Origin: Candidatus Falkowbacteria bacterium S5_I03
GTDB lineage: Bacteria > Patescibacteriota > Patescibacteriia > Patescibacteriales > UBA12465
DNA: 64,000 nt
Reading direction: 5' to 3'
NCBI GenBank assembly: GCA_019248265.1
Contig: JAEHGX010000005.1
Location: 1-64,000 of the forward strand
The stretch's first letter is position 1. Every line of letters begins with the position of its first letter. The position numbers were made by a program, and so were the translations under genes. Of the stretch, positions 22,869 to 27,946 are shown piece after piece. The notes beneath the pieces were generated by a model, which did no database searches, had not been told where the DNA came from, and worked only from the letters and a program-made list of their open reading frames with translations.

Positions 22869-23849
22869 ATGTTTTCTTATCGCTCAATCTTAAAACAATC
22901 TTGGAACATCGCCTGGAAGAACAAATATCTCTGGCTATTTGGACTTTTTGCCTCCATTGCGGCCGCCAGCGGTTCTTTTGAATATCAAGTCTTAGCCAAT
23001 GGCCTGCAATCAAGCGCTTTAGAAAATTCTTATTCCCATATTAACGGCCTGGTAGTCGTCCTGAGCGCTTTTGGCTCTTTCTGCGCCGGTTTTTGGAACT
23101 TATTTTCCTACGATATTTTTACCATCATTAACACTTTGACCGTTTTAATTATTACCCTGACTTTAATTGTAACTTTTGTCTGGCTATCTATTTCCTCACA
23201 GGCCGCACTCGTGGTCAGTGCTAAAAAATTAATAGTTGCCAAGAAAAAAACACCAATTCTAAATATTAGAGAAAACCTAGCGAAAGGACATCTTCATTTT
23301 TGGCCAGTACTCGGACTAAACATCTTAATCAAGGTTTTAGTCGGCTTAGCTCTCTTTATAATGTCTGTTCCTTTATTATTTTTAGCCGTTAACGGTTCCG
23401 CCTATCTAGCCGGGGTTTATGTTTTATCTTTTATAATTTTTACCCCGATTGCAGTTTCTCTATCCTTAATCATTAAATACGCAATCGCTTACAACGTTTT
23501 AAATGAGGAATCATTCTGCTCATCTTTAAAAAAATCAATTAAACTATTTGGCAACAATTGGCTGATGAGCGTTGAAATGGGAATTATTCTCTTTATTATC
23601 AGTTTCTTAGCCGGCTTTCTATTGCTGGTTATTATTTCAATTTTTATTTTCCCATACCTCGTCTTTGCCGCCAATTACGGCTTGGCTTGGCTGCTGGTTT
23701 TCTTGATGTTTATTGTGCTCGCTCTGATTCTATTTACCGGAGCGATTCTAACAACTTTTCAAGTATCCGCTTGGACTGATTTATTTTTAGAACTGGAAGA
23801 AGGCCGCGGCGAAGCAAAGCTGGAAAGAATGTTCAAGAAAAAAGCTTAA
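22869..23849 (+). CDS. Multi-spanning membrane protein of unknown function
   Basis: 326 residues with six or so hydrophobic segments (about 20-38, 57-75, 88-112, 145-170, 180-205, 235-300) and a short basic C-terminus. The layout (QSWNIAWKNKYLWLFGLF start, long hydrophobic repeats, IKYAIAYNVL) resembles the membrane domains often annotated as DUF or glycerophosphodiesterase-type in CPR, but I cannot assign a reaction. It is first in an operon, 3 bp before the tandem PilB gene, which makes a link to the pilus or secretion machine possible. Confidence 0.7.
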   Translation: MFSYRSILKQSWNIAWKNKYLWLFGLFASIAAASGSFEYQVLANGLQSSALENSYSHINGLVVVLSAFGSFCAGFWNLFSYDIFTIINTLTVLIITLTLIVTFVWLSISSQAALVVSAKKLIVAKKKTPILNIRENLAKGHLHFWPVLGLNILIKVLVGLALFIMSVPLLFLAVNGSAYLAGVYVLSFIIFTPIAVSLSLIIKYAIAYNVLNEESFCSSLKKSIKLFGNNWLMSVEMGIILFIISFLAGFLLLVIISIFIFPYLVFAANYGLAWLLVFLMFIVLALILFTGAILTTFQVSAWTDLFLELEEGRGEAKLERMFKKKA

Positions 23850-23852
23850 ACT

Positions 23853-26800
23853 ATGGGAAAGGTGGACTCAATCGAAAATTTATTAAATCCGACAGGCGAC
23901 GAAGAAAGCGTCGCCGGTCTTTTTGCAAGGAAGCAAGAAGAAATAAAACTCAAAGAATTAGAGCATAAAACGCAAAGAGATGCCGAAGAGCTTGGCTTGG
24001 ATTATGTTAATCTTTATGGCTTCCCGATCAGTCCCGAGGCTCTGGTTTTAATTCAAGAAGAACGCGCTCAAGAGCTAAAGGCAATTTGTTTTTTTTATGA
24101 TGGCAAAAATATTAGAGTCGGCTGCTTAAATCCCAGCGCCGAAGTTCTGGAAGAAATGAAGCGATTAAGCGAACAATATTTTGCTGACGCCAAACTATAT
24201 CTTATTTCCTCCAATAGTTTAAAGGCGGCTTTAGAAGCCTATCGCTCGTTGCCAAAGGTCAAGAAATATGAAAGCGGCGTGGAAATCAGCCCCGAACAAC
24301 TAGAAAAATTTAAGAACGACATTTCCAGCTATAAAAATCTAAATGATAAAATAAACGACGTAAATATTACTGACGTCATTACTTTAATTTTAGCAACCGC
24401 TATTAAGGTTGGCGCCAGCGATGTCCATATTGAGGCTGAGGATAATGGCGTTGTTATTCGCGTAAGATTGGACGGCGTCTTGCAAGAGGCGGCTGTTATC
24501 AGCCGCGAAAAATGGCATAAAATTATTTCCCGTTTAAAAATATTGGCGCGCGTTAAAATTAATATTGAAAATAAACCGCAAGACGGCCGTTACACAATTT
24601 ATTTAGAAAACCGCCGCGTTGATGTCCGTTGCTCATTTTTGCCGACAGCTTATGGAGAGAGCGTGGTTATGCGTCTTCTAGACTCCGCCATGACGTCTTT
24701 GGATATTGAAAATTTAGGCGTCAGACCAGAAGTTTTACCAATTTTAAGAAGAGAAATCGCCAAGCCGAACGGTTTAATTTTAACCACCGGGCCGACCGGT
24801 AGCGGTAAAACGACAACTTTATACGCCGTTATAAACAAACTTAACCAATCAGGCACTAAGATAATTACTTTAGAAGATCCAATCGAATATCAATTATCAG
24901 GCATTAACCAAAGCCAAGTAGACAGCAAGCATGGCTTCAGTTTTTCTGAAGGCTTAAGATCAATCTTGCGCCAAGACCCTAACGTAGTAATGGTTGGCGA
25001 AATCAGAGATTTGGAAACGGCAGAAATTGCCGTCCAAGCCTCTCTTACCGGCCATATTGTATTATCAACTCTACATACTAATGATGCCGCCGGCGTAATC
25101 CCCCGCTTAATAGATATTGGCGTAAAGCCATATTTTCTGGCGCCTTCAATTAACGCTGTTATCGGTCAACGTTTAGTCAGACGGCTATGTGTTCATTGTC
25201 GCCAAGAAAAAACTCTAAGCGCCGATGAAGAAGAATTAGTCCACAAAATACTAGCGGTTATCTCCCCTAAAACGGGCATTAATATTCCCTCCAAACTCCC
25301 TAATGTTTTCCAAGCGGGCTCCGGTTGCGAACAATGCAACTTTACCGGCTATAAAGGACGCTCGGGTATTTTTGAAATTTTTACCCTAGACGACAAAATT
25401 CGCCAATTAACAGTAGAACAAGCGCCTTCTTTTAAAATTCTTCAACAGGCGATTGAAAATGGCATGATTACCATGCTTCAAGACGGTGTCTTAAAAGCTT
25501 TAAACGGCGAAACTAGCCTTGAGGAAGTCTATCGAGTAATCGGTAATTTTGATTATGTTAACGAACTTTACGATATTGTAATTTCGCAGACCATCGGCCG
25601 CGGCGTTAAAATAAGCGCGCAACAAGTAGAGGATGCCAAAGAGTTAAGTAAAAATATTTTAGAAATCAGTGAAAAAGCTAAAGAGGTGCCGACATCTGAT
25701 TTGATTAGACTGACAATGACTCTCGCTGTCTTGCGGGAAGCCGGCGATGTCCATATCGAGCCCACCGCCGATGAAGTTAAAATTCGTTTCCGCATTGACG
25801 GCATTTTGCATGATATTTTTTCCTTACCAAAAACCAGTTATCTACCATTACTATCAGAAGTAAAGATCCTCGCCGGCACTCCAACTAACATTAAGCGCGC
25901 CACCTTTGACGGTCGTTTCAGCGTTTATTTACCCGATCATAAAATTGATTGCCGTTTATCAATTATTTCCGGCGGTTACGGTGAAACTATTGTTGTTCGC
26001 TTGCTAACAACTGAAGCTGCTAACCTGGATATGGTAAAACTGGGAATTACCGGCACAACTTTAAGCTCCTTAGAGGCGGCGATGAAAAAGAACAAAGGTA
26101 TCATTATTACTACCGGACCGACTGGCAGCGGTAAAACGACAACCCTATACAGCGCCCTGAACCAACTTAACAAGCCGGATGTTAAAATCATTACGGTCGA
26201 AGACCCAATTGAATATCAGTTACCTGGCGTGATGCAGACTCAAATTGACGAAGCGAGCGGCTACACCTTTGTCTCGGCGATGAAATCTTTGCTGCGCCAA
26301 AATCCTAATATCATGATGATTGGTGAAATTAGAGACGCAGAAACCGCCAAGATTTCTATTGAAGCAGCCATGACAGGCCATCTAGTTTTATCAACCATCC
26401 ACGCCAACAGCGCCGCCGGAGCCATCTCCCGCTTTGTCGGACTCGGTGTTGAACGCCAAGCGCTAGCTAATTCCATAGAATATACTATCGGCCAGCGTCT
26501 AGCCCGCCGAATTTGTCCTTATTGCAAACAGGAAACTTCAGTCAGTCCCGAAGATTTAGAAAAAGTAAAAAATATTTTAAGCAGTATTAATAACCCGGCA
26601 ATTACAATTCCCGAAAAGTTAACTTTTTATAAAGGCGCCGGTTGTGAAAAGTGCGGTCAAATCGGCTATAAAGGAAGAATCGGCCTTTATGAAGCGATAA
26701 CCATGACTCCGGGAATCCAAACCATAATTCAAAATGAAAGAGTCACTGACTTTGAAATTGAACAAGAGGCTATTAAAAACGGCATGGTAACTATGCTCCA

Positions 26801-26864
26801 AGACGGAGTTCTAAAAGTATTAAATGGGGAAACAACTTTAGAAGAAGTATTCCGAGTAATCTAA
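23853..26864 (+). CDS. Tandem PilB/GspE ATPase: two complete type IV pilus/T2SS motor modules in one chain
   Basis: 1003 residues. Residues 1-150 are an N1E-like domain; the first ATPase module spans about 170-565 and the second about 620-1003. Each has the full motif set: Walker A GPTGSGKT at 313-320 and 755-762, GEIRD at 382-386 and 824-828, the His box (TGHIVLSTLHTNDAAG and TGHLVLSTIHANSAAG), and a CxxC...CxxC zinc finger (C446, C449, C492, C495; C888, C891, C931, C934). The copies are 442 residues apart and end alike (TMLQDGVLKALNGETSLEEV and TMLQDGVLKVLNGETTLEEV). PilB normally has one module of about 560 residues. The likely role is powering pilus assembly; no pilC, pilT, pilM or pilin is in the window. 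Confidence 0.95.
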   Translation: MGKVDSIENLLNPTGDEESVAGLFARKQEEIKLKELEHKTQRDAEELGLDYVNLYGFPISPEALVLIQEERAQELKAICFFYDGKNIRVGCLNPSAEVLEEMKRLSEQYFADAKLYLISSNSLKAALEAYRSLPKVKKYESGVEISPEQLEKFKNDISSYKNLNDKINDVNITDVITLILATAIKVGASDVHIEAEDNGVVIRVRLDGVLQEAAVISREKWHKIISRLKILARVKINIENKPQDGRYTIYLENRRVDVRCSFLPTAYGESVVMRLLDSAMTSLDIENLGVRPEVLPILRREIAKPNGLILTTGPTGSGKTTTLYAVINKLNQSGTKIITLEDPIEYQLSGINQSQVDSKHGFSFSEGLRSILRQDPNVVMVGEIRDLETAEIAVQASLTGHIVLSTLHTNDAAGVIPRLIDIGVKPYFLAPSINAVIGQRLVRRLCVHCRQEKTLSADEEELVHKILAVISPKTGINIPSKLPNVFQAGSGCEQCNFTGYKGRSGIFEIFTLDDKIRQLTVEQAPSFKILQQAIENGMITMLQDGVLKALNGETSLEEVYRVIGNFDYVNELYDIVISQTIGRGVKISAQQVEDAKELSKNILEISEKAKEVPTSDLIRLTMTLAVLREAGDVHIEPTADEVKIRFRIDGILHDIFSLPKTSYLPLLSEVKILAGTPTNIKRATFDGRFSVYLPDHKIDCRLSIISGGYGETIVVRLLTTEAANLDMVKLGITGTTLSSLEAAMKKNKGIIITTGPTGSGKTTTLYSALNQLNKPDVKIITVEDPIEYQLPGVMQTQIDEASGYTFVSAMKSLLRQNPNIMMIGEIRDAETAKISIEAAMTGHLVLSTIHANSAAGAISRFVGLGVERQALANSIEYTIGQRLARRICPYCKQETSVSPEDLEKVKNILSSINNPAITIPEKLTFYKGAGCEKCGQIGYKGRIGLYEAITMTPGIQTIIQNERVTDFEIEQEAIKNGMVTMLQDGVLKVLNGETTLEEVFRVI

Positions 26865-26868
26865 CTAT

Positions 26869-27444
26869 ATGATAAACAAAAAATTCTTAGACGCTTTAAA
26901 AAAAGACTATCAAGCTAACGAAAGCGAACGCCGACAAATTATCAGCGCTTCGAACGGTATTCTTTTTGAAGCTAAAAAAACTATTTTTTCTTTGCAACGC
27001 CAAGATTTTAAAACTGCCGAAACTAAAATAACTGAAATGGAAAAAGCGCTAGCTAACCTGGAAAAACGTTTTGGCGCTGACAGATTAAAAAAGGAAGGTG
27101 CCTATAAAGCGGCAGCCGAAGAATATTTAGAAGGCAAAACTTTTTATTTAATAATCAAAAAGAAAGAGATTAACCCCAGTGCTGGTCTAAGTCTTGATTA
27201 TGAATCATATTTAGGCGGTATTTGCGATTTAATCGGCGAACTGGTGCGCTATGCCACCAACCAAGCCGCCAAAGGCAAGTTTGCCGAGGTTGCGAAAATA
27301 AAAAAAGCCGCCGAAGATATTATGGCGCAGTTGATTGATTTTGATATGACCGGATATTTGAGAACTAAATATGATCAGGCGCGCGGACATTTGAGAAAAT
27401 TGGAACAAATGGCCTACGAAATTAAAATGCGAATCGGCAAATAA
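26869..27444 (+). CDS. Translin/TRAX family protein
   Basis: All-helical protein of 191 residues. The C-terminal half carries the translin signature: YLGGICDLIGELVRYA (114-129) and LRTKYDQARGHLRKLEQMAYE (164-184). In eukaryotic C3PO, TRAX provides four acidic RNase residues; here E85 and E88 (EEYLEG) and D120 and E124 (CDLIGEL) fall at the matching places, so the protein looks like the catalytic TRAX type. Length is close to archaeal homologues. It starts 5 bp after the tandem PilB gene and ends 5 bp before the phosphodiesterase gene. Predicted role: RNA processing or decay; family assignment is from motifs only. Confidence 0.8.
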   Translation: MINKKFLDALKKDYQANESERRQIISASNGILFEAKKTIFSLQRQDFKTAETKITEMEKALANLEKRFGADRLKKEGAYKAAAEEYLEGKTFYLIIKKKEINPSAGLSLDYESYLGGICDLIGELVRYATNQAAKGKFAEVAKIKKAAEDIMAQLIDFDMTGYLRTKYDQARGHLRKLEQMAYEIKMRIGK

Positions 27445-27448
27445 AAAT

Positions 27449-27946
27449 ATGCTAGTGGCGATTATTTCCGATATCCATGATAACCTTTTGAATTTGGCCA
27501 AATGTCTGGACTGGTGCAAGGATCATAAAATAGGAAGAATGATATGTTGCGGCGATGTCTGTGACGCCGATACTTTAAAATTTTTGGCAAAAAATTTCAA
27601 GGGAAAAATTTCTTTAGTCGAGGGAAACGGCGAGACCTTTGTTGAATCAGATTTGGAAACCTTAAAAAATATTAAATATTACGGCTTGGCCGGAGTCGAA
27701 AAAATAGGCGGACTGAATTTAGGTTTTTGCCATCAAAATAAAGACATCAGCAAAGTGGCTGAACTCAGCTCGCAAACTTTAGATTTTATTTTTATCGGCC
27801 ACAGTCATAAACCTTGGTTGGAAAAGCGAGAACAAACTTTTATCGCTAACCCCGGTAATGTTTCCGGCACCTTTTTCCAAGCCACCTTTGCTATTCTGGA
27901 TACGGACAATAAAAAACTTGATTTAAAAATATTGGCACATCTTTGA
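27449..27946 (+). CDS. YfcE/MJ0936-type metallophosphoesterase
   Basis: Calcineurin-like phosphodiesterase, 165 residues. Motifs: SDIHDN (D8, H10), CCGDVCDA, GNGE (usually GNCD or GNHE), FCHQN (replacing the usual GH), and GHSHKP near residue 118, followed by IANPGNVSG. The variant third and fourth motifs leave the metal site slightly unusual. Family members hydrolyse phosphodiesters such as cyclic nucleotides in vitro. It is last in the plus-strand operon and is followed by a terminator. Confidence 0.88.
   Translation: MLVAIISDIHDNLLNLAKCLDWCKDHKIGRMICCGDVCDADTLKFLAKNFKGKISLVEGNGETFVESDLETLKNIKYYGLAGVEKIGGLNLGFCHQNKDISKVAELSSQTLDFIFIGHSHKPWLEKREQTFIANPGNVSGTFFQATFAILDTDNKKLDLKILAHL

Follow-up and report, generated by a model that had tools for sequence, protein, structure and literature searches.

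A conserved two-module ATPase of the PilB/GspE family in Patescibacteria

Results

In a stretch of 64,000 nucleotides from Candidatus Falkowbacteria bacterium S5_I03 (contig JAEHGX010000005.1; hereafter the window) we find one uninterrupted open reading frame that encodes two complete ATPase modules of the PilB/GspE family in a single chain. This tandem version of a well-known motor family is real and conserved, and our literature search found no description of a tandem or fused PilB/GspE protein. As the best explanation we tentatively put forward, at a strength just short of probable, a tandem motor that belongs to the PilB/GspE (PilT/VirB11-like) ATPase family and is catalytically intact. 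The gene, its parts and its neighbours are arranged as follows.

22869–23849, + strand: membrane protein gene, 326 aa, all-helical, no Pfam family
23853–26864, + strand: tandem PilB/GspE-family ATPase gene, 1003 aa, one uninterrupted ORF
23991–24248, + strand: N1 (MshEN, PF05157) domain, residues 47–132, single copy, E 4e-6
24357–25541, + strand: module 1 (N2-C1-C2 ATPase core), residues 169–563
24789–24812, + strand: module 1 Walker A GPTGSGKT, residues 313–320
24996–25010, + strand: module 1 Walker B/catalytic Glu GEIRD, residues 382–386
25188–25337, + strand: module 1 tetra-cysteine, Cys 446, 449, 492 and 495
25542–25682, + strand: inter-module linker, residues 564–610
25683–26861, + strand: module 2 (N2-C1-C2 ATPase core, without N1), residues 611–1003
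26115–26138, + strand: module 2 Walker A GPTGSGKT, residues 755–762
26322–26336, + strand: module 2 Walker B/catalytic Glu GEIRD, residues 824–828
26514–26654, + strand: module 2 tetra-cysteine, Cys 888, 891, 931 and 934
26869–27444, + strand: translin-family gene (PF01997), E 2e-20, conserved downstream neighbour
27449–27946, + strand: metallophosphoesterase gene (PF12850), conserved, next after translin

Pfam T2SSE (PF00437) matches the protein twice, at residues 170–561 and about 612–1003, with 401.1 and 365.3 bits respectively against a cut-off of 24.9, and with no internal stop between the two domains the initial annotation of this DNA, which had proposed two complete modules in one chain, is borne out. 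The modules are 46% identical over 423 residues (E 1e-132). Walker A starts at residues 313 and 755, giving exactly the separation of 442 residues that had been claimed, and Walker A, GEIRD and both CxxC pairs repeat at a spacing of 439–442 residues. With the His-box histidines at 401/408 in module 1 and 843/850 in module 2, the motif positions also confirm that GEIRD, the His box and both CxxC pairs are kept in each module. The N1 (MshEN/GSPII) domain, which sets extension ATPases apart from retraction ATPases, is matched once only, at residues 47–132, so that module 2 does lack N1 as had been noted. The linker is predicted to be mostly helical, and pLDDT falls below 50 only at residues 580–582. 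Upstream, the membrane protein gene ends 3 bp before the ATPase frame, in agreement with the initial annotation; downstream, the adjacency of the translin gene stands but the gap is 4 bp rather than 5 bp. The nearly identical C-termini of the two modules are likewise found in the window's protein. Single-module orthologues broadly conserve this stretch as well, however, and in other fused proteins the two ends resemble each other clearly less, so the likeness is ordinary homology.

Of 35 relatives sampled from the family, 34 have the same unbroken chain, single-contig chromosomes included. The open frame is about 1004–1025 residues long in these relatives, and about 1003–1036 when the other families of the order and Moranbacteria are counted too; the lone exception (G018) is an 80% complete assembly of about 130 contigs. 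We collected 48 complete fused ORFs from the GTDB species collection, seven of them in the Moranbacteria lineage, and none is split near residue 570, the point at which the initial annotation had placed a possible break; the fusion is genuine. A split gene pair was looked for in relatives and not found, nor was a separate second-module gene found near single-module orthologues within the flanks examined. That two neighbouring genes were joined by an error of assembly or annotation is a reading of negligible probability, given the equal length and order in dozens of independent genomes, among them the single-contig G003, G023 and the 96%-identical relative on the single-contig chromosome CP066698.1, and the absence of any stop within the fused frame. 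The tandem form is real and old, and dozens of related species retain it. It also occurs in six other families of the order; outside the order, a class-wide sample contains the fusion in family f51 only, and most matching genomes of that sample carry a single-module orthologue aligned to residues ~6–563.

Residue roles were taken from the structure of PilB from Geobacter metallireducens (GmPilB; PMC5424180) and mapped onto the window's protein by motif alignment with an offset of 12. In GmPilB the Asp-box Glu is the magnesium ligand, and two arginines, R271 and R286, extend into the adjacent site; the tetra-cysteine zinc motif is typical of the PilB/GspE clade and unconserved in PilT/PilU (PMC5424180). 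Counts were made over 56 first and 55 second modules of fused proteins. The Walker A Lys, the Asp-box Glu, the Walker B Glu, both Arg fingers, both His and the four Cys are found in 55/55 second modules and in 56/56 first modules, save for three of the latter, which have Lys as the second Arg finger. The four Cys are thus present in both modules of every fused sequence; among second modules, one Ser occurs at the T399 position. Compared with the 96%-identical relative, the two modules have dN/dS values of 0.017 (module 1) and 0.019 (module 2), which come from this closest pair only, as remoter pairs are saturated at synonymous sites and were left out. Purifying selection is equally strong on both modules, and judged by their residues both look catalytically active. 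A degenerate second module is ruled out by the residue counts together with dN/dS. At three near-invariant positions the residue differs between first and second modules (S189/G631, G367/A809 and D375/N817). We rejected D375N as a mark of second modules only, Asn being found also in the genome's own PilB on contig C2.

We built a tree of 86 modules, in which the 21 second modules fall, without exception, into one clade (support 100/99). The single-module orthologues of the class are the sister group of the Falkowbacterial first modules (100/99), the Moranbacterial first modules are placed elsewhere, and a clade of these two sets of first modules alone was rejected (AU p 0.001). Independent tandem duplications in Falkowbacteria and Moranbacteria are disfavoured by the tree (100/99), but the AU test does not reject them (p 0.066), nor does it reject a duplication older than the split of all orphan-locus first modules (p 0.13). 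Gene order matches orthology, since membrane protein, ATPase and translin genes follow each other around fused and single versions in the window's class, and the DHH-ATPase order is found around fused and single versions alike in the other class. Since single-module proteins at the same locus are the orthologues of the first modules, the second module was gained or lost in place. We suggest a single origin of the second module as most likely, through duplication of a PilB-type module, with later gain or loss at the conserved orphan locus. Fused genes with different surroundings (L071, L085, L086 and L196–L198) suggest occasional transfer, and the near-identity of the first module of G503, from another class, to that of G042 may reflect transfer or contamination. 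The 440-aa single proteins lacking N1 in Nealsonbacteria and relatives (L100, L101, L103, L105, L185 and L186) were ruled out as stand-alone second modules, as they lie outside the second-module clade. A strongly diverged tandem ATPase (L192:3399-6290, in G451) sits on long branches and its placement is unsure.

The 326-aa membrane protein is present in 32 of 34 family genomes and its gene directly precedes the ATPase gene in nearly all family loci examined. Considering homology to PilC, we found no Pfam match for it at E 0.1. Its model (mean pLDDT 81.7) has no resemblance in the PDB with E <0.001 by Foldseek, the top matches being weak ones to choline-transporter-like proteins (E 0.02 or worse); these results leave room for a distant homologue of PilC. 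Across the class a bacterial translin-family gene, that at 26869–27444 in the window, adjoins the ATPase. In other classes of the phylum we observed an orphan PilB-like ATPase locus (L189, L190, L191, L192 and L194) in single and fused forms, with DHH phosphoesterase, PolA, TsaE and RuvB genes nearby. In another lineage a different, 568-aa probable membrane protein (L071:3269-4975, L085:3269-4975) is encoded 4 bp before the fused ATPase, and such a protein also adjoins the fused ATPase in L198.

No pilC gene (PF00482) is encoded at the fused-ATPase locus. The genome has two pilC genes, each adjoining a single-module pilB, one locus with pilM and the other with prepilins, and the fused gene lies outside both of these ordinary type IV pilus loci. 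Nearly all family genomes have one or two pilC genes, and a long distance separates the fused gene from pilC in the single-contig G003 and G023. Without a pilC partner and away from the two ordinary pilus loci, 'PilB' is here the name of a protein family and not of a shown role. The neighbours in Moranbacteria (DHH, RuvB and TsaE) include no pilus gene, and translin and metallophosphoesterase are likewise not pilus genes. In the loci L072 and L074, from two relatives, prepilin genes do follow the fused ATPase, at distances of 6 and 21 bp; none is present in the window. Their products (L072:8034-8885, L074:8049-9128) carry an N_methyl match and C-terminal Divergent InlB-repeat or Fib_succ_major domains, and provide a modest link of the fused ATPase to filaments.

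Discussion

A role as pilus motor is a reasonable guess, with an important gap in the missing pilC. The protein may serve a type IV filament as an additional motor of the extension type, working via the genome's pilC platforms in trans or via the neighbouring membrane protein; we regard this as possible, if slightly less than an even prospect. Alternatively, it might be no filament motor at all but a Patescibacteria-specific ATPase of the PilB/GspE family that serves another membrane or nucleic-acid task together with the neighbouring membrane protein and translin. This would fit the lack of pilC at the locus and the conserved settings of fused and single orthologues alike, beside membrane protein, translin and metallophosphoesterase genes in the window's class and beside DHH, PolA, TsaE and RuvB in the other class. 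Small genomes often scatter their genes, however, which makes neighbours weak evidence, and the fully conserved catalytic and zinc motifs of PilB/GspE, the retained N1 domain and the prepilin genes that immediately follow the ATPase in L072 and L074 all speak for a filament motor, so that we consider a non-filament task rather unlikely.

By Foldseek the model of the fused protein best matches PilB, PilF and GspE. The protein shares with GmPilB (PDB 5TSH) the N1-N2-C-terminal ATPase architecture, all catalytic residues, the Arg fingers, the His box and the tetra-cysteine, and the module folds match with a TM of the target of up to 0.89. Known PilB, however, forms rings of six identical chains with one module each, whereas the fused protein has two diverged modules, one N1 per pair and no adjoining pilC. 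Among solved structures its best sequence matches are GspE/EpsE (4PHT, 1P9R and 4KSR), and it scores above the cut-off of NCBIfam TIGR02533 with a score summed over the two modules; GspE/EpsE has a single module, though, and a GspL/GspF partner in a secretion operon, neither partner being seen at the fused locus. TfpB of Acinetobacter baylyi is a functional precedent, being a second, phylogenetically distinct extension motor alongside PilB, but it is described as a separate PilB homologue (PMC8213720), and against the TfpB family NF053534 (NCBIfam) the fused protein scores 733.5, below the cut-off of 850.

How the two modules would assemble can be considered from known rings, in which N2 of each protomer rests on its neighbour's C-terminal domain and ATP lies between the two (PMC5424180, PMC11656802). 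Each module has both the cis and the trans (Arg-finger) halves of an ATP site, so a three-chain alternating ring would be possible with no new chemistry. If modules 1 and 2 lie side by side in one ring, three chains would make a six-module ring in which 1–2 and 2–1 interfaces alternate and the membrane side bears just three N1 domains. This would be the simplest architecture, and we take the arrangement as a whole to be slightly more probable than not. It would match PilC, for which a trimer has been proposed whose paired cytoplasmic domains meet six protomers (PMC11656802). Against it counts that known PilB hexamers are C2-symmetric with equivalent opposite subunits (PMC5424180, PMC6858323), whereas an alternating ring would put module 1 opposite module 2. 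The C3 OCOCOC state of PilT from G. metallireducens (PMC6858323) does show alternating interfaces and the symmetry expected of a trimer of tandems; its alternation is conformational, in identical chains, while that of the fused protein would be built into the sequence.

A stacked double ring of six chains, with one hexamer of module 1 over another of module 2 as in two-ring AAA+ machines, would be equally allowed by the sequence. Each ring would then be built of identical modules, and the three changes S189/G631, G367/A809 and D375/N817, which occurred together, could reflect packing of like with like. The linker moreover leaves module 1 at the end of its C-terminal domain and enters module 2 at the start of its N2, a course that would put module 1 in the place of N1 in ordinary PilB. 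Yet known motors of the PilB family are single rings, and the three changes arose on one branch and cannot separate the models; we regard the double ring as less likely, though a serious rival. The AlphaFold2 monomer of the fused protein (mean pLDDT 79.7, pTM 0.50) leaves the ring arrangement unsettled, as we read this pTM to mean no confident packing between modules.

Returning to the ring of three chains, N1 is thought to contact the PilM/GspL stator, and PilC is proposed to meet the ring itself (PMC11656802). Loss of every second N1 would therefore halve the contacts with the stator, not those with the platform, which weakens the initial proposal of one membrane-platform contact per pair of motors. 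A fuller scheme, in which the protein is a natural covalent concatemer of the PilB family with a three-chain ring, hard-wired alternation, three N1 domains matching a trimeric platform, and a Patescibacteria-specific system whose own membrane partner replaces PilC, seems to us unlikely in its entirety. The three-chain idea is plausible and testable. Two questions are unsettled in the literature we consulted (PMC6858323, PMC11656802): the symmetry of PilB/PilT-family rings, C2 or C3, and the number of PilC subunits in the platform, two or three. A chain that naturally carries two modules narrows the possible ring arrangements and could help with the C2/C3 question, and each of its sites can be mutated separately at a fixed ring position, which is not so with identical subunits. 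It would also be a sign of another, so far unstudied, ATPase system in Patescibacteria. In Saccharibacteria two type IV pili have been shown, one of which contributes to host binding (PMC12206443). In the window's genome we also observed a divergent protein of the T2SSE family (G000:C75:2264-3265, L143; E 5e-18), besides a PilT-like gene on contig C10.
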